From Leptospirillum sp. (GTDB taxonomy: Bacteria; Nitrospirota; Leptospirillia; Leptospirillales; Leptospirillaceae): 32,844 nucleotides of DNA. The translations under genes and the position numbers were made by a program. The notes beneath the pieces were generated by a model, which saw only the letters and a program-made list of their open reading frames with translations, was not told where the DNA came from and ran no database searches. This document shows positions 5,179 to 32,500 of this stretch, piece after piece. The DNA is taken from positions 247 through 33,090 of the forward strand of contig DAHWBS010000012.1 in the NCBI GenBank assembly GCA_027323445.1, given 5' to 3'. How positions within the stretch are numbered: position 1 is the stretch's first letter; every line of letters starts with the position of its first letter.

Positions 5179-5861
5179 TTAGCCTCACATTCGGACTTAA
5201 GCATTTCTGGGGAAAGAGAGAGAAGCCGCGACAGCTCCACATCAAAATCTCCCGACTGGATCTTTTCCATCCGGTGAAGGAGATTATCCGGAAACTTCAG
5301 CTCCTGACTCCCATAAGCCCTTCTTGCATAAAGAGCAATCTCATGGGGTGCCATCTCGGCAATGCAACGGGAAACACACAAGCCACACATGACACAACTC
5401 ATCGTTTCTTCCGTTACCCCTTTGAAATCACCAAAAACAGAGCGCCAGACAGCATCTCTCACATCTATTCCCTGGGGACAAACCTCTGTACAGGCATTAC
5501 AGTTCCTGCAGGTGGCCGACTCGGGATAGAGCTTGAAGAGCTCTTCTTTCGTATCTGCAATAGCTTCGATCTTGTAATCTGCACGCTGGGAAGGAAATGA
5601 CGGGATCAGGCTAAAGGCCATATTTTCCCTCACAAGGGTCTGGCAGGCCAATGCATTATGAAGATGGAAGTCTCCGGGCATCCTGTATACAGCTGCACAT
5701 GCTCCGCAAACACCCCCCAGACAGCCAATTCCATGAATGACTTCATGTCCCGTGTACCACATTGCCTGAATCATGGTCAGACCTTCAGGAACACTCCAGT
5801 CCTTTCCATTGATGCCCACCTTTATCATTCTTGCATTATCGGGTTTCTCATACTTGAACAT
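5175..5861 (-). CDS. frdB: Fumarate reductase iron-sulfur subunit
   Basis: A 228-residue electron-transfer subunit. The plant-type [2Fe-2S] ligands are Cys47, 52, 55 and 73 (GCLGGVCGAC...AC). Two ferredoxin-like quartets follow: CRNCNACTEVCP (Cys118, 121, 124, 128) and CVMCGLCVSRC (Cys156, 159, 162, 166). Canonical SdhB/FrdB carries one [4Fe-4S] and one [3Fe-4S] cluster; here the last site has a full four-Cys pattern but lacks the usual Pro. I chose ATG 5861, with GGGGAG 5 bases upstream, rather than the longer frame to 5903. It overlaps frdA by four bases. The electron donor is unknown; the lack of an anchor subunit suggests a soluble donor rather than quinol. Confidence 0.9.
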   Translation of the reverse strand: MFKYEKPDNARMIKVGINGKDWSVPEGLTMIQAMWYTGHEVIHGIGCLGGVCGACAAVYRMPGDFHLHNALACQTLVRENMAFSLIPSFPSQRADYKIEAIADTKEELFKLYPESATCRNCNACTEVCPQGIDVRDAVWRSVFGDFKGVTEETMSCVMCGLCVSRCIAEMAPHEIALYARRAYGSQELKFPDNLLHRMEKIQSGDFDVELSRLLSLSPEMLKSECEAK

Positions 5862-5953
5862 GGGAACTCCCCTGTTTAAAGTTGCTCGCTCAAGACACAC
5901 CACTCGAACCGATTGGAATTATGAACCATTTTCTTCTTTTATTCGTATGGGGG

Positions 5954-5983
5954 ATTTTAGCAGATCAACCCTGTATTCATCAA
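5954..5983 (-). promoter_or_regulatory. Candidate sigma70 promoter for frdBA-sucCD
   Basis: On the minus strand TTGATG (5978-5983) and TAAAAT (5954-5959) are separated by 18 bases, about 90 bases upstream of the frdB ATG and within the 148-base gap after the PsiE-like gene. The match is 4/6 and 5/6, so this is only a candidate. Confidence 0.35.
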
Positions 5984-6009
5984 CGTCCGACCACCCCAAA
6001 AAAACGTTC

Positions 6010-6618
6010 TTACTCCGGAGATCTGGAGATTTTTTTCCCGTTTCCTTTTCTCCGAACCATCTCCATAAGCTTCTGGAGTGCCAGGGAGTGAGCGGAGAAA
6101 TCAGGTGCCTCCTGACGGGGAGGCTGGTAACGGATCGCAACAAACCTGAGAACGGCAAGGGAAAGAATCAGAACCATCAATGCAAAGATCCGCTCAATAC
6201 CCTCTCCGGAAAACCATGTGACAACAGCTTCGGATAGAAGAAGGGCCAAGACGGTATCAACAATAAAAGTCACTTTTACACGACCAAGGATAAAGTAGGC
6301 CATGACCGTTCGAGAAACCTCAAGGAGAGCCAGCACCAGCAAGGAGTTCACAACAAGACTTTTCAGAACCATTAAAAGGCCGTTCGGAACTTGCCGGAAA
6401 GCAGCAAGTGCCGTTTCCGCAGTCCCCCATATCATGGCCACCACCTGGATAAAAAGAAGACTCAGGAGAACAAGTTTGATCCCCTTTACATACCATCCGG
6501 GAACCACGTTATGTACGGGCTGTTGATCATCCTCCAGCGATCCCGGCGGTAATGGAGCGGCACCTTCAGAAACAGATATCTTGTTATCTACAGGAGATGT
6601 TGTGTGGTCCTCAATCAT
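6010..6618 (-). CDS. PsiE-like four-helix integral membrane protein
   Basis: A 202-residue protein with a soluble, acidic N-terminal tail (about 40 residues), four hydrophobic segments (about 46-64, 82-102, 116-136, 142-163) and a basic C-terminal tail. The segment LLEVSRTVMAYFILGRVKV followed by a third helix resembles the phosphate-starvation-inducible PsiE family (Glu-x-x-Arg-Thr, then a polar loop before helix 3). PsiE has no established biochemical role. An AAGGA site lies 7 bases before ATG 6618. It sits between a terminator and frdB, where a membrane anchor for fumarate reductase might be expected. I see no paired heme-ligand His residues in the helices, so I do not call it FrdC. The family call is moderate. 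Confidence 0.6.
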   Translation of the reverse strand: MIEDHTTSPVDNKISVSEGAAPLPPGSLEDDQQPVHNVVPGWYVKGIKLVLLSLLFIQVVAMIWGTAETALAAFRQVPNGLLMVLKSLVVNSLLVLALLEVSRTVMAYFILGRVKVTFIVDTVLALLLSEAVVTWFSGEGIERIFALMVLILSLAVLRFVAIRYQPPRQEAPDFSAHSLALQKLMEMVRRKGNGKKISRSPE

Positions 6619-6670
6619 TGTATTTCCTTAAGACAAGGTGAGTAAAAAATCGGGAGGACAATCAACCATG

Positions 6671-6705
6671 AAAGGAAAAGAGCTGACCTTTTTGCCGGTC
6701 AGCTC
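6671..6705 (-). terminator. Intrinsic terminator after citryl-CoA lyase
   Basis: A perfect 9-bp stem GAGCTGACC/GGTCAGCTC (6680-6688 with 6697-6705) has an 8-base loop. On the minus strand it is followed by TTTTCCTTT (6671-6679 complement). It lies 60 bases after the lyase stop and would separate that gene from the PsiE-like gene. Confidence 0.75.
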
Positions 6706-6764
6706 CATCTTAGATCATTGAAATAAAAACAACATCAAGAAATCAGGAGACTATCTCCCAAATA

Positions 6765-7565
6765 TCAGGATTTTTTGGGAACGGACCTCACTGCCGGACC
6801 ATCATACTCATACGAGCCTTCCTCAAGACGCCGGAAGGGTTTCTCTCTATTCCATTCCTCAACAATATGAGCAACAAGTCCAGGGATCCTGCCGATAATA
6901 AAAATCCCCTTGCCTGTCTTCCATGAAAGACCCATTTCAGAAATAACCGCTGCAATCATTCCATCAACATTTAACGGAAGAGGTTTTTGGGACTGAGCTT
7001 CCAAAGCATCCTGAATGGCAACCGCAAATTCCACATAACGACCGGAAAATCCATATTCTTTGGCCAACTCGAGAATGCGAAGGGTTCTGGGATCTCTCTT
7101 GTAGAGTTTATGGCCATACCCGGGAAAGCGTTTTTTCTTTTTAGAAAAATCATCTACAACCTGACGGGCATGCGCTGTTACATCACTCACATCCGAACCT
7201 AACTGCTCCTGATAGATTTTTGCGCATTGTTCAATAGCTCCGCCATGATGATCTCCAAGAGTCAAAACGCCAGCAGCAACAGCTGCGTTCAGGGGGTTAC
7301 CACCTGAATAAACCGTCCTGGCAGAAACAACGGATGGAGGACCGATCCCATGATCAATACAGGCAACCAGCATCGCCTCCATCATTTTACGTTCTTTCTC
7401 TGTAGGCAACTCCCCTTTCAGGACCAGATAAATTCCTTCGGCAAAAGAAACATTGCCGATCAGGTCATCCAGTGGATATCCACGGACCACCGTTTTTCCA
7501 TCAACTTGTCCTGCAACAGATGTTCTCCAGTTTTTTGTTGAGGATCCTTCACCTTTTTCACTCAT
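6765..7565 (-). CDS. ccl: Citryl-CoA lyase
   Basis: A 266-residue member of the citrate-synthase fold, much shorter than a true citrate synthase (about 370-430 residues). In the two-enzyme citrate cleavage known from Hydrogenobacter thermophilus, this protein splits citryl-CoA to acetyl-CoA and oxaloacetate. Catalytic residues of the superfamily are visible: His107 (GDHHGGA), His152 (GYGHKLYKRDPRT) and Asp201 (NVDGMIAA). The SD is modest (GGGAG, 10 bases before ATG 7565). Terminators lie on both sides, so it may be transcribed alone. The assignment as lyase rather than a short citrate or methylcitrate synthase rests on length and on ccsA and ccsB nearby; the ATP-citrate lyase C-terminal domain is its close relative. 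Confidence 0.9.
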   Translation of the reverse strand: MSEKGEGSSTKNWRTSVAGQVDGKTVVRGYPLDDLIGNVSFAEGIYLVLKGELPTEKERKMMEAMLVACIDHGIGPPSVVSARTVYSGGNPLNAAVAAGVLTLGDHHGGAIEQCAKIYQEQLGSDVSDVTAHARQVVDDFSKKKKRFPGYGHKLYKRDPRTLRILELAKEYGFSGRYVEFAVAIQDALEAQSQKPLPLNVDGMIAAVISEMGLSWKTGKGIFIIGRIPGLVAHIVEEWNREKPFRRLEEGSYEYDGPAVRSVPKKS

Positions 7566-7632
7566 CTTTAAAAAACTCCCGAGTTATAGAGATCAATAGA
7601 AGTATAGAAAGTTTTTTGGGGGGATACTGATC

Positions 7633-7662
7633 AAAAAAAAGGGCCCTCCTTCAGGAAGGCCC
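7633..7662 (-). terminator. Strong intrinsic terminator after aconitase
   Basis: On the minus strand a 9-bp GC-rich stem (GGGCCTTCC/GGAGGGCCC with one G-U pair, 7641-7649 with 7654-7662) with a TGAA loop is followed directly by eight T residues. It begins 12 bases after the aconitase stop. Confidence 0.93.
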
Positions 7663-7673
7663 ACTTTCGGATC

Positions 7674-9596
7674 TTAGGCTTTACGAGATTTCACATAGGA
7701 CAGTGTCCCGCCTGCTGCCACAATCTCGAGGTCGCGGCTGCTTAATGCGTGAGTCACAGGAATGGATAGTCCCTTTGTCACATTTTTCAGTGTAAGGGGT
7801 TTTTTATCCAGATGGGCTGTTTCCAGCTCAAGGACATCTCCCGCATCAACCTTGTCATAATCGGATTCATTGACGAAAGTTAGAGGAAGAATGCCGAAGT
7901 TGATCAGGTTTGCCAAATGGATTCTAGCAAATGACTTCGTAATGACTCCCTTGATACCGAGATACATCGGAGCAAGTGCCGCATGCTCACGACTGGACCC
8001 CTGTCCGTAGTTGTTTCCACCAATGATAAAGCCACCACCTTCTTCCTTTGCCCTTTTGGGGAAAGTAGGATCAATCGCTTCAAAAACATACTGACTGATA
8101 GCGGGCACATTTGAGCGAAGGGGGAGCACTTTGGCACCAGCAGGCATAATATGGTCTGTGGTGATATTGTCGCCCACCTTGAGCAAGGCCTTTCCCTTGA
8201 TTTCAGGAGCAATCCTGTCACGGGTCGGAAGGGGCTTGATGTTTGGCCCTCTCATGATCTCAACAGATTTTCCGTCAGCCTGCGGGAAGATAAACATGCG
8301 GTCATCGAGTACATACTCTGAAGGAAGATCGATCTGCTCGAACTTCACACCCAGATCCCGAGGATCCGTAATCACACCTGTAATGGCACAAGCTGCAGCA
8401 ACTTCGGGGCTGGCCAAATACACTTTTGCATCTTTGGTACCACTGCGTCCTTCAAAATTACGATTGAATGTACGGACCGAAACACCACCGGAAGGAGGAG
8501 CAAAGCCCATACCGATACATGGACCACAAGCACTTTCGAGAAGACGGGCTCCTGCGGTGATCATGTTTCCGAGAACACCGTTCTGAGAGATCATCTCAAG
8601 GGTCTGACGGGATCCTGGAGAAAAACCAAGGCTCACCCCCGGACTGACCATTTTTCCCTTCATCAGATGAGAAATCGTCATCAAATCCTTGAAGGAAGAG
8701 TTTGTGCAGGAACCGATCGCAACCTGGGAAACAGGAATACCCTGAATATCACGAACTTTCACCACATTGTCAGGAGAGTGTGGCTGTGCGATCAGCGGCT
8801 CGAGGGTATCCAGATCAATCTCAACGGTTTCATCATAAGTGGCACCAGGATCAGCAGCATATTCGCGATAATCCTTTTCCCGACCCTGCGCCTTAAGATA
8901 TTCCCTTGTCCTGTCATCGCTCGGGAATATTGAAGTCGTCGCACCGAGCTCCGCCCCCATATTGGTGATCGTGGAGCGCTCCGGAACGGAAAGGGAGCGA
9001 ACACCTTCTCCATTGTATTCAAAGATCCGGTTGACACCACCCTTGACGGTCAAACGGCGCAACAGCTCAAGGATCACGTCCTTAGCCGAAACAAAAGGCT
9101 GCAAACGCCCTGTTAATTTGACCTGGACAACTTTAGGCATAGTGAGATGAAATGCTTCGCCACCCATAGCCAAAGCCACATCAAGACCGCCGGCACCAAT
9201 GGCAATCATTCCTACGCCGCCATTGGTCGGTGTGTGGCTGTCAGAACCAAGAAGAGTTTTTCCCGGCTTACCAAATCGCTCGAGATGCACCTGATGACAG
9301 ATACCATTACCAGGGCGGGAGAACACAATCCCGTATCGGGCAGCAACGGTCTGAAGATAGCGGTGATCGTCTGCATTTTCAAAGCCCGTCTGCAACATGT
9401 TGTGATCAACATAGGAAACAGAAAGCTCCGTTTTGACACGATCAAGTCCAAGAGCTTCAAACTGAAGGTAGGCCATTGTCCCGGTAGCATCTTGAGTGAG
9501 TGTCTGATCGATCCGTATGGCAACTTCTTTTCCAGCAACAATTTCTCCGGAAACAAGGTGTTCTTTAAAAATTTTCTGCGTCAGATTAAGCGCCAT
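7674..9596 (-). CDS. Aconitate hydratase (about 640-residue type)
   Basis: A 640-residue [4Fe-4S] enzyme interconverting isocitrate and citrate; in rTCA it supplies citrate to CcsAB. Substrate-site segment DQTLTQDATGTMA, then LGSDSHTPTNGGVGM, the first cluster Cys in GSCTNSSF, and the remaining two in SACGPCIGMG are all present. The swivel domain carries GGNNYGQGSSREHAAL. The length matches the compact aconitase subfamily rather than AcnA (about 890) or AcnB (about 860). AAGGAG lies 8 bases before ATG 9596. Upstream (transcription order) are the 49-residue membrane protein and ccsBA; a strong terminator follows. Confidence 0.96.
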   Translation of the reverse strand: MALNLTQKIFKEHLVSGEIVAGKEVAIRIDQTLTQDATGTMAYLQFEALGLDRVKTELSVSYVDHNMLQTGFENADDHRYLQTVAARYGIVFSRPGNGICHQVHLERFGKPGKTLLGSDSHTPTNGGVGMIAIGAGGLDVALAMGGEAFHLTMPKVVQVKLTGRLQPFVSAKDVILELLRRLTVKGGVNRIFEYNGEGVRSLSVPERSTITNMGAELGATTSIFPSDDRTREYLKAQGREKDYREYAADPGATYDETVEIDLDTLEPLIAQPHSPDNVVKVRDIQGIPVSQVAIGSCTNSSFKDLMTISHLMKGKMVSPGVSLGFSPGSRQTLEMISQNGVLGNMITAGARLLESACGPCIGMGFAPPSGGVSVRTFNRNFEGRSGTKDAKVYLASPEVAAACAITGVITDPRDLGVKFEQIDLPSEYVLDDRMFIFPQADGKSVEIMRGPNIKPLPTRDRIAPEIKGKALLKVGDNITTDHIMPAGAKVLPLRSNVPAISQYVFEAIDPTFPKRAKEEGGGFIIGGNNYGQGSSREHAALAPMYLGIKGVITKSFARIHLANLINFGILPLTFVNESDYDKVDAGDVLELETAHLDKKPLTLKNVTKGLSIPVTHALSSRDLEIVAAGGTLSYVKSRKA

Positions 9597-28408: not shown

Positions 28409-28645
28409 CTCAACACTGATCAACAATCTTAAAACGGCACCTTCCTGGAGAGCAAGAAACCATTCGACGGGAATCCGCTGGCATCGGAAGAACTATCAGG
28501 GAAGTACAGGCGGAGTAACAGCGGTTCGGAGTTACCGTCAGGACACAACAGAAAAAGCGGGAAAAAGAAAAACAGAACCGTCCGCTTGTTCCCTTCTGGC
28601 TTGTGGCCCGGGAAGGAAAATGCACGAACAATCTGTTCAGGAGGA
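28409..28645. other. Intergenic stretch, no supported gene
   Basis: Frames here are short, lack SD sequences and give low-complexity or Cys/Ser-rich products unlike the neighbours. It should contain the promoter for the small frame and adh, but none is clear. Confidence 0.5.
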
Positions 28646-28675
28646 AACCGGAAGAGAAGAACTTCTCTTCCGGTT
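28646..28675 (-). terminator. Perfect 13-bp hairpin after sat, probable terminator
   Basis: AACCGGAAGAGAA (28646-28658) pairs exactly with 28663-28675 around a 4-base loop, starting 16 bases after the sat stop. On the minus strand only TTTCCTCCT follows, so termination may be imperfect. Confidence 0.65.
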
Positions 28676-28691
28676 AAAACAAAAAGAGGTT

Positions 28692-29924: not shown

Positions 29925-30278
29925 TCAGGCCCCTCCCATTTCGGCGATCAGATCATCCGGCACACGAGTCGGAGCGTCAAAAAACTCAGGCTCCTTCCCT
30001 GCCGTTTCAAGAGTCCATCGTATGCTTTCCCGCCTGACCTTTGGCATCAAGCGGGCATTTTCCGCCGCAACAGAATAGGGCAGAACCACCTCAACTGCAC
30101 CTACCGGACAGGGCTTGACGCAGGCATAGCAGTCCCAGCAATCGGCCTGTACGCGCATGAAGGCTTTCTGATCTTCCTTCCGGATTCCGATAAGGTCCCC
30201 CGGACAAGCCATGACACATCTTGCCTCAGGCAATTTGACACATCCATGGCAGACGTTGAGATCAATGCGAATTCCCAT
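29925..30278 (-). CDS. aprB: Adenylylsulfate (APS) reductase, beta subunit
   Basis: A 117-residue ferredoxin-like subunit, somewhat shorter than the 140-170 residues of dissimilatory AprB. Two [4Fe-4S] quartets are visible: Cys10, 13, 21, 25 (CHGC...CVMACP) and Cys47, 50, 53, 57 (CWDCYACVKPCPVGAVEV), the latter a hallmark of AprB. A tail of about 60 residues follows that in the family wraps the alpha subunit. ATG 30278 has AAGGAGG 6 bases upstream; the gene overlaps the aprA end by 17 bases. It passes electrons to the FAD of AprA. Confidence 0.93.
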   Translation of the reverse strand: MGIRIDLNVCHGCVKLPEARCVMACPGDLIGIRKEDQKAFMRVQADCWDCYACVKPCPVGAVEVVLPYSVAAENARLMPKVRRESIRWTLETAGKEPEFFDAPTRVPDDLIAEMGGA

Positions 30279-32010
30279 GGAAAACCTCCTTATCCTCTTG
30301 ATGACCACTTTTTAAAACGTCTCCTCCGGAAAGAGATCTTAAAACAATCTTCGATTCTCCCGTCTCAAGGTCCCGCACAGAATTGACAAAAACGGACCAG
30401 TTCAGAGAATCCGTTTCAGGATAGTCGGTGCGGCTCTGGAAACCTGGCCATCGGCTTTCCTTTCTGGCCCGGAGATGGGCGACTAAAACTCGTGAAACAT
30501 CGACCCGGTCAACGACTTCATGCGCATTCATCAGTTCATGGAGATCATTGGCTTTCATGCGGGGAAGATCTGATGCAATACGCTGAAGGTAGTTATCGGC
30601 CATGGCAAGCCCCGCCTCATTCATTTTATAAGCGGTTCGTATCCCCCCGGCATATTCGTCCATGACTTTCTGCATGCGCTCCTCAATCTCCTCGGGAGAA
30701 TATTCCCCTCTCGAATGATCGAGATACGAAAACACACGATCTTCCTCTTCGGTCACCTGGGCCAGATCAAGACCGGGAATTGGCGTTTTTTCCGTCTGCA
30801 TGTCCGAAATAGCCGTCAGAGCGGCAATTTTTCCTTCTGCGAAGCAGCCGGAGACAAACTTGTATGGAGCTCCTCCTGCCACATCCCCTGCGGCAAAGAG
30901 ATTGGGAAGAGTTGTTCTCCTCCCGGCATCAACCCAATAACCAGCCTGACAATGACCGCCTACGACATAAGGCTCGGTACCGCAAATCTCGATGGGATCC
31001 CGTCCAGGATCGATATCGCTGGAAGCCCAGTAAAGAACGGTGTTGGGATACATGTCCAGATAGGCTTCCTTGAGCTTTTTCACCCGATCGGAAGAGAGAT
31101 GTCTGGTATCCATAAAGCATGGACCCCGTCCCTCTTCGATCTCTTTCATCGGAGCGGCCAGCCGGATCGGAGTCGGAGCTCCCTCACCTCCCCATTCGGA
31201 CCATCTGAGCTTCATGAATTCTTCCCCAAGAGCATTCACCTGCGGGGCACCAAAACCCAATGCCAGAGTCCCGGTGGGCGCCAGTGTTTCCTTCGTCCTC
31301 AAAGCAATGAAGCGATGCTCAAAACTTGTCATCTCGGCACCGGCCCTGATTCCAATCGCGTATCCGGCACCTGTGTTGAAGGGGGAGTACCACATCGTGT
31401 GTCGGGCAGCCCCTTCGTTGTTTGGACGATAAAGCCCCGATGCTCCTCCTGTGGCGACGATCGTTTTTCTGGCTCTGGCAACGTAAAACTCTCCATCGCG
31501 AACACCAAATCCCATGGCACCGCTAACAGCCCCCTCCTGCATCATGAGATTCGTGACAACAACGCGATTGAGAACCGTCACGCCCGACTCGACCACTTTT
31601 CTCGCCAGAATGGACTTTAGCGACTCTCCATGAATTTTGATGTTCCAGCGGCCACGAGGGGAATACTGTCCATTCTCATCTTTCACAATGGGCAAACCCA
31701 TTTGCTCAAGCTCACGGACAACCTCGGAAAAGAGTTCTGCCTGGGTTCTGACGAGGTCTTCCCTCAAAATCCCCATGGAATCGAAGCGGACATAATCCAC
31801 GAAAGAATCGACGGTTTCCCCTGGATTGATATAGGCATTGATGGCGTTCATTCCTCCGGCAAGACAGCCGGAACGATCAATATGAGCCTTCTCAAGGATC
31901 AGCACCCGGATATCGGGGGCAGCTCTTCTTGCACTGATGGCCGCAAAGCAACCGGCCGTTCCGCCACCAATGATCAACAGGTCTGTCTCGTGAATTTGAC
32001 GCTTGACCAT
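30262..32010 (-). CDS. aprA: Adenylylsulfate (APS) reductase, alpha subunit
   Basis: A 582-residue FAD protein of the fumarate reductase/AprA family that reduces APS to sulfite and AMP. The FAD motif DLLIIGGGTAGCFAA (10-24) and LEKAHIDRSGCLAGGMNAINAY are AprA-like, as are SPFNTGAGYAIG, FEHRFIALRTKETLAPTGTL and YVVGGHCQAGYWVDAGRRTTLPNLFAAGDVAGGAPYKF. I use ATG 32010, with GGAGG 4 bases upstream; the extension to 32100 would run through the promoter and operator. The AprB partner excludes an ordinary succinate dehydrogenase. Without dsr or sox genes here, an assimilatory role is plausible (inference). Confidence 0.93.
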   Translation of the reverse strand: MVKRQIHETDLLIIGGGTAGCFAAISARRAAPDIRVLILEKAHIDRSGCLAGGMNAINAYINPGETVDSFVDYVRFDSMGILREDLVRTQAELFSEVVRELEQMGLPIVKDENGQYSPRGRWNIKIHGESLKSILARKVVESGVTVLNRVVVTNLMMQEGAVSGAMGFGVRDGEFYVARARKTIVATGGASGLYRPNNEGAARHTMWYSPFNTGAGYAIGIRAGAEMTSFEHRFIALRTKETLAPTGTLALGFGAPQVNALGEEFMKLRWSEWGGEGAPTPIRLAAPMKEIEEGRGPCFMDTRHLSSDRVKKLKEAYLDMYPNTVLYWASSDIDPGRDPIEICGTEPYVVGGHCQAGYWVDAGRRTTLPNLFAAGDVAGGAPYKFVSGCFAEGKIAALTAISDMQTEKTPIPGLDLAQVTEEEDRVFSYLDHSRGEYSPEEIEERMQKVMDEYAGGIRTAYKMNEAGLAMADNYLQRIASDLPRMKANDLHELMNAHEVVDRVDVSRVLVAHLRARKESRWPGFQSRTDYPETDSLNWSVFVNSVRDLETGESKIVLRSLSGGDVLKSGHQEDKEVFHGNSH

Positions 32011-32036
32011 TTCCCCTCCAAAAGAGATCGCGATCG

Positions 32037-32087
32037 CTTTTATGTTTATAATAGTTACTAACCTATTAACTATTATAAACATAAAAG
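32037..32087. repeat. 21-bp perfect inverted repeat over the apr promoter (candidate operator)
   Basis: Bases 32037-32057 and 32067-32087 are exact inverted copies (outer ends CTTTTATG/CATAAAAG, inner ends TAGTTA/TAACTA) with a 9-base centre. It covers the -10 box and the expected start of the aprA promoter. It ends 27 bases before ATG 32010. No T-run follows, so it is not a terminator. Symmetry and position indicate a dimeric repressor site. Confidence 0.9.
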
Positions 32088-32100
32088 ACAGCCTTGTCAA
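32072..32100 (-). promoter_or_regulatory. Consensus sigma70 promoter of aprA-aprB-sat
   Basis: On the minus strand TTGACA (32095-32100), exactly 17 bases, then TATAAT (32072-32077): a full consensus match. Transcription would begin near 32065, in the centre of the inverted repeat, giving a 55-base leader. Confidence 0.93.
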
Positions 32101-32134
32101 CTCTCTCTCGCATCAGTGCAGGGAGCACATCATC

Positions 32135-32168
32135 TGTCCGGTTTTGGAGCGCAAGGGTTGTCCGGTTT
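32135..32168. mobile_element. Probable insertion-sequence end with direct repeats
   Basis: TGTCCGGTTT occurs twice in direct orientation (32135 and 32159, 24 bases apart) just before a transposase-like start. This arrangement resembles the subterminal repeats of an IS end. The opposite end is not seen, so the element is truncated. Confidence 0.5.
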
Positions 32169-32194
32169 CATAATGGGTCCAGAAAGGACTCAGA

Positions 32195-32330
32195 ATGAAC
32201 CAAACGACCGTACTACAGGGGATCCGGAAGATCTATCTTGAAGAAACATAGAATGAGCGGAAGAAAGAACGGCTGACGCAGGAAGTCGTCCGGTCGAAGA
32301 CCCGGTATGAAAACGGAAACCCCACCTGCA
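32195..32330 (+). pseudogene. Transposase N-terminal remnant
   Basis: ATG 32195, with AAAGGA 6 bases upstream, begins MNQTTVLQGIRKIYLEE, which resembles the N-terminus of helix-turn-helix transposases that start MNETTVLQGIRKMRFEE. The frame is broken by TAG at 32249-32251 after 18 codons. Transposase-like residues (ERLTQE, then RYENG) continue in frame after the stop, and the rest of the gene is missing. Nothing functional can be made. The right boundary is approximate. Confidence 0.55.
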
Positions 32331-32500
32331 GCGAAAAGCGCTTAGGTGAGGGAGAGATGCAGACAAAGCGACTTTCCACTCATATCAGTGGAATAACACT
32401 CCTTATATATCAGCTACTTACGGAGTTTTACTGCGCTTTTCGATAAATATATCAACACGAACACTCGCGTTTTTAGCGCTCTCCGAAGCATGCGCTGTAT
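32331..32500. other. Intergenic stretch after the IS remnant
   Basis: AT-rich in part, with no supported gene; it separates the IS remnant from the stop of the Sua5-type gene. I see no clear terminator for that minus-strand gene. Confidence 0.45.

Follow-up and report, generated by a model that had tools for sequence, protein, structure and literature searches.

Control of the apr promoter

How is an exact consensus promoter, embedded in a long palindrome in front of the aprA-aprB-sat genes of a Leptospirillum sp., controlled, and by which regulator? The initial annotation of this locus had read it as a full-strength promoter under tight repression. To obtain insight into its control, we performed an in silico analysis of a stretch of 32,844 nucleotides (hereafter the window) from the source genome (G000; 1.5 Mb, 73% complete), followed by comparison with related genomes. 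The following features are relevant, with coordinates given as window positions.

32095-32100, minus strand: -35 box TTGACA of the apr promoter (TTGAC[A/T] in 19 of 19 family aprA promoters)
32072-32077, minus strand: -10 box TATAAT, in the upstream arm of the palindrome, 17 bp from the -35 box (from the sequence)
32054-32070, minus strand: putative 17-bp core operator covering the start site, GTTAATAG-G-TTAGTAAC (from family-wide conservation)
32037-32087, no strand: 51-bp near-perfect palindrome (long arms common to genome G005 only)
32065, minus strand: predicted transcription start (inferred)
32013-32019, minus strand: ribosome-binding site GGAGGGG of aprA (from the sequence)
30262-32010, minus strand: aprA, APS reductase alpha subunit, ATG at 32010
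29925-30308, minus strand: aprB, ferredoxin-like beta subunit, 127-aa frame (cf. L052 11786-12169)
28692-29864, minus strand: sat, ATP sulfurylase (PF01747, PF14306)

On the minus strand, exactly 17 bp separate TTGACA from TATAAT, which gives the apr promoter the sigma-70 form TTGACA-N17-TATAAT. Its -10 box lies within the 51-bp palindrome, which is composed of a perfect 21-bp inverted repeat (arms 32037-32057 and 32067-32087) around nine central bases (CTAACCTAT) or, in an alternative description, of 24-nt arms that mismatch at one position and enclose a 3-nt centre, the dyad centre being at 32062. A second TATAAT, on the plus strand, starts at 32047, as had been pointed out. Transcription is predicted to start at about 32065, 7 bp past the -10 box, and the ATG of aprA stands behind its ribosome-binding site. 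Re-derivation of the coordinates reproduced the arrangement that had been annotated, and its claimed rarity was borne out as well. As chance control, the window was shuffled 20 times by a first-order Markov model; the longest near-perfect arm measured 10-14 nt and a perfect promoter occurred in none of the 20. Moreover, among the palindromes found in 757 kb of DNA from Leptospirillaceae, the present one ranks first in length, followed by the orthologous site of G005. The combination of palindrome and promoter is not a product of chance.

Two further regions of the window were inspected. Upstream of the promoter, positions 32122-32430 are unlike their counterparts in G004 and G005 and hold a 23-nt direct repeat and a broken frame (MNQTTVLQGIRK...), which we take to resemble the N-terminus of a transposase; the region gave no NCBIfam match. 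Behind sat, positions 28562-28676 gave a weak Rfam match to the SR6 antitoxin (31 bits, the gathering score being 55), probably by chance.

A conserved dyad, probably the core operator, in the family

In every family aprA promoter seen (19 of 19), a TTGAC[A/T] box is followed by a -10 box and then by the core dyad GTTAnTAA-n-TTAnTAAC, which lies over the start site; one side of the dyad is weaker in genus g5. Symmetry holds at offsets 3, 5 and 7 in all of these promoters and at offset 6 in 95% of them (n=19). Because symmetry further out falls off, except in G000 and G005, the conserved operator unit, judged by this comparison, measures about 17-23 bp and the 51-bp palindrome is an extension of it. 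The core dyad is very probably the operator of a repressor of the apr promoter; we favour a repressor over an activator since the promoter is of consensus type and the dyad covers its start site. The proposal of a full-strength promoter under repression has thus gained ground, as a near-consensus promoter with a conserved dyad behind it precedes aprA throughout the family genomes seen and recurs at sir and DsrE genes (see below). The view of the palindrome as the operator, on the other hand, had to be narrowed: what relatives conserve upstream of apr is the central 17 bp, whereas the 51-bp repeat is common to one relative only. Among the Bacillota relatives of AprA, no apr-type operator was found before aprA.

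The long arms of the palindrome

The long arms are present in G000 and G005 and lacking in 17 of the 19 apr promoters; in G004, the left arm is similar and the right arm degenerate. A comparison of G000 with G005 shows that, within offsets 5-23, the arms deviate at four positions only (-16, -9, +9 and +16), which form two pairs and leave the symmetry intact. This pattern could stem from selection for flanking half-sites or from template-switch repair that makes one arm match the other, and the chances that the long arms have a function are about even. With a function, they may add weaker flanking sites in these two genomes. In the alternative explanation, only the core would be an operator, and the functionless long arms would stem from template-switch repair in the course of replication, with one arm serving as template for the other (quasipalindrome homogenisation). 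Template switching is indeed known to make the arms of inverted repeats alike (PMC7202029, PMC8604942), and the symmetry reaches to offset 23-25, past the conserved core, with the -10 region copied; the one-sided similarity in G004 also agrees with such an origin. The process is, however, not general, since a palindrome of comparable length was found nowhere else in the 757 kb of family DNA, unless an existing dyad is required as a seed, as may be the case. We regard this origin as quite possible, if somewhat less than an even prospect, and the palindrome as a case for telling binding-site selection from template-switch repair.

Putative regulon: aprA, sir and DsrE genes

Pattern searches and genome stretches covered 21 genomes, the same 21 that were returned by a class-level search. 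The exact symmetric core GTTAnTAAnTTAnTAAC yielded six matches, three before aprA and three before the gene for a siroheme sulfite/nitrite reductase (sir), while the reversed control yielded none; the search of related genomes for the half-site that had been suggested for this locus thus led, with the exact core, to aprA and sir only. Allowing for one mismatch, the pattern adds the remaining apr sites, most of the g5 sir sites and the G004 sir site, and it also finds the promoters of DsrE-type clusters in G001, G006 and G018; its total count is about that of the reversed control, and single loose matches mean little without a conserved place. Related sites were seen in the sir promoters of G003, G005 and G006, the outer half-sites of G003 and G006 being 8 bp further apart, and the sir promoter of G001 has a poor operator score. 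In G000 itself, sir was not found. Matches to 'GTTAATCGATTATGAAC' in g5 coincided with the beginning of a conserved gene, to the eye a threonine-synthase-like one, and were set aside as background. The sir product is a NIR_SIR protein, a class whose models do not separate sulfite from nitrite reduction; the partner genes argue for sulfite.

The clusters of small DsrE-family genes with an apr-type operator occur in three genera (L054, about 5246-7063; L057, about 7245-9150; L168, about 6255-8160). In addition, half-sites of apr and sir promoters repeat at 8-bp steps, e.g. GTTATATA-GTTATTAA-TTTAATAAC (L056, L066, L067, L163-L168, L297, L298), a recurrence that is unusual for an Rrf2 dimer.

A CymR-like Rrf2 protein as candidate repressor

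The window holds no regulator gene, in agreement with the initial annotation, and the best candidate lies on another contig (G000:C16:18386-18808). Rrf2 proteins are widespread in Leptospirillaceae and of two kinds, one IscR-like and encoded beside iscS, the other CymR-like. The candidate, of the latter kind, belongs to the Rrf2 family (PF02082, 85.6 bits against a cut-off of 30; TIGR00738, 84.7 against 73.3) and matches CymR structures. Its best-scoring specific model is the NCBIfam CymR equivalog NF047409, matched over its full length (3-140) at 52.1 bits, below the cut-off of 195; by these scores the protein is CymR-like, not CymR. The C-terminal tail is MFYI or MFFI in 13 of 13 complete family copies (MFYI in that of G000), MYHI or MFHI in Nitrospirota relatives and MFYI in CymR of S. 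aureus, hence of the Ile-ending type that can enter CysK. The three Fe-S cysteines that mark IscR are missing from this group of proteins (group 2).

Fourteen of the 21 genomes were seen to contain the candidate gene. It is missing from G002, G010, G017 and G019 together with uppP, its neighbour in g5; in G009 the contig ends beside uppP, and for G005 uppP is no guide, the two genes not being neighbours in g1. These absences would mostly come from assembly gaps, an explanation that is doubtful for G008 (96% complete), the main phyletic doubt, where the expected place holds an HNH-type insertion followed by the end of the contig. The frame in question (L249 5952-6872) is IscB-like by eye and lies beside uppP, about 0.7 kb from the contig end. 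In Leptospirillaceae the candidate gene is unlinked to apr, no apr-type operator indicative of autoregulation was found near it, and in the tree the family copies are not firmly joined to the apr-linked ones. Another candidate gene common to all neighbourhoods was not found. Weighing all of this together with the evidence from its relatives, presented below, we consider it rather probable that the CymR-like Rrf2 protein is the repressor acting at the apr operator.

In other Nitrospirota, relatives of the candidate are encoded by the first gene of Rrf2-aprA-aprB(-sir) operons, of one Rrf2-aprA-aprB-sat operon and of Rrf2-sir operons, and one is encoded near DsrE genes; the target classes of the linked proteins are the three classes of the Leptospirillum operator (apr, sir, DsrE). 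In the promoters of the linked operons, TTGACA and a -10 box are followed by TAATTCCTATCGGAATAGTA or a similar sequence. This ATTCC-N4-GGAAT dyad, which we take to resemble the CymR box, has the same promoter position as the Leptospirillum dyad. Operators of the ATTCC/GGAAT type are absent from the apr and sir promoters of Leptospirillaceae, and the sequence is practically absent from the family. Furthermore, the recognition helix reads FLKQ in 13 of 13 complete family copies and [FY]LEQ in all linked relatives, CymR and IscR, the changed residue (Glu to Lys) being at the position of IscR Glu43. Glu43 of IscR makes contact with CC in the operator, and specificity changes when this residue is lost (PMC5411485; PMC10783083). 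The loss of Glu from the helix and of CC/GG from the operator thus fit together, and a co-divergence of Rrf2 helix and operator in Leptospirillaceae is probable. Tentatively, we propose that a CymR-like repressor changed its DNA alphabet and kept its regulon: with the exchange of Glu for Lys, ATTCC-N4-GGAAT would have given way to GTTAnTAA-n-TTAnTAAC at the same position of the apr, sir and DsrE promoters, after which one sub-lineage would have grown the 51-bp palindrome, kept symmetric by paired changes.

Proposed mechanism

According to our model, aprA-aprB-sat would form a sulfate-assimilation operon driven by the consensus-strength sigma-70 promoter in the palindrome. A dimeric repressor on GTTAnTAA-n-TTAnTAAC, over the start site and beside the -10 box, would block RNA polymerase; the same repressor would also govern sir and, in some species, the DsrE cluster. 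When cysteine is ample, the Rrf2 protein, probably stabilised by CysK, would sit on the start site, and when O-acetylserine rises or reduced sulfur runs short, it would leave and the promoter would fire. The model for this is the CymR-CysK regulation of B. subtilis (PMC3828012, PMC12895370). The candidate would report cysteine status through CysK because its tail (MFYI) is of the B. subtilis CymR kind; by this analogy, a CysK signal is conceivable, although we hold it to be somewhat doubtful.

Alternative explanations

A different repressor may have taken over in Leptospirillaceae with the same operator and logic, for instance a ribbon-helix-helix protein on tandem 8-bp boxes like MetJ or another winged-helix protein, and the CymR-like Rrf2 protein would then have another role. 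Such a replacement would account for an operator that has nothing in common with the ATTCC-N4-GGAAT of the relatives, for the 8-bp spacing at which half-sites recur in several of the sir and apr promoters and for an unlinked Rrf2 gene that could not be found in G008. It is nevertheless unlikely, given that Rrf2 genes of other Nitrospirota are linked to the same three classes of target, that the change from Glu to Lys in the helix fits an operator without CC/GG and that the neighbourhoods yield no alternative gene common to all. The XRE gene pair beside sat was rejected as the regulator, having been seen in g5 genomes, with one XRE gene in one g3 genome and none in g1, g2 and g4. In g5, these two small genes of the XRE helix-turn-helix type lie directly downstream of sat (L058 11897-12589, and the same place in L061, L062, L063 and L065).

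Control of apr and sir by IscR, the Rrf2 protein with three Cys, is very improbable. IscR is present in nearly all genomes, and in four genera a distance of about 4 kb separates iscR-iscS from aprA, but the iscR promoters carry, right after the -10 box, a different conserved dyad, ATCnCAGACC-N5-GGTCTGCGAT, and no apr-type site, so that IscR, having its own distinct operator, is disfavoured as apr repressor. This second family-wide operator was observed at the iscR-iscS promoters (L053, L055, L056, L058, L060-L062, L065, L068, L212, L213, L222) and is presumably the IscR site of Leptospirillaceae.

Extrusion of the AT-rich palindrome as a cruciform, which would make the promoter sensitive to supercoiling, is hardly credible; the strand folds as a DNA hairpin (-16.6 kcal/mol, z -8.9), but any DNA palindrome folds by construction and the long arms are missing from 17 of the 19 apr promoters. 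The strong inverted repeat just upstream of the gene might also suggest a hairpin in the leader RNA, acting as attenuator or terminator, which can be dismissed almost outright: with the start as predicted, the upstream arm precedes it and is not in the apr mRNA, the leader piece that was folded gave z -0.36, a T-run does not follow the repeat and no Rfam family matches the site, so that neither the transcript structure of an intrinsic terminator nor a known RNA family such as a riboswitch was found.

Comparison with known systems

A described regulator of sulfate assimilation in Leptospirillum was not found in the literature searched; the present analysis adds a probable operator with a small regulon, together with a specific candidate gene, each of which can be tested. 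With CymR the candidate shares the Rrf2 fold, the lack of Fe-S cysteines, the C-terminal M[FY][YFH]I tail and, as proposed here, the repression of sulfur-acquisition genes. CymR differs in its helix (YLEQ against FLKQ in Leptospirillaceae), in its equivalog model, on which the candidate reaches 52 bits against a cut-off of 195, in its operator, which in Leptospirillaceae is GTTAnTAA-n-TTAnTAAC, and in its targets, which are cysK, tcyP and mccAB as opposed to apr-sat, sir and DsrE genes. IscR is likewise an Rrf2 protein with dyad operators of similar size and has Glu43 at the position that is changed here, but it needs three Cys for its cluster, and the isc operator of Leptospirillaceae is another sequence. 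The met boxes of MetJ, with the unit AGACGTCT as compared with TTAnTAA here, are alike in that some of the operators consist of palindromic units with an 8-bp period and in that a sulfur regulon is controlled. The Rrf2-aprA-aprB-sir and Rrf2-sir operons of other Nitrospirota have the same promoter plan and target classes as Leptospirillaceae, whereas their regulator is linked to its targets and their operator is TAATTCCTATCGGAATAGTA. Thus, if our reading holds, repressor and operator seem to have diverged together within the phylum while the regulon was left unchanged.
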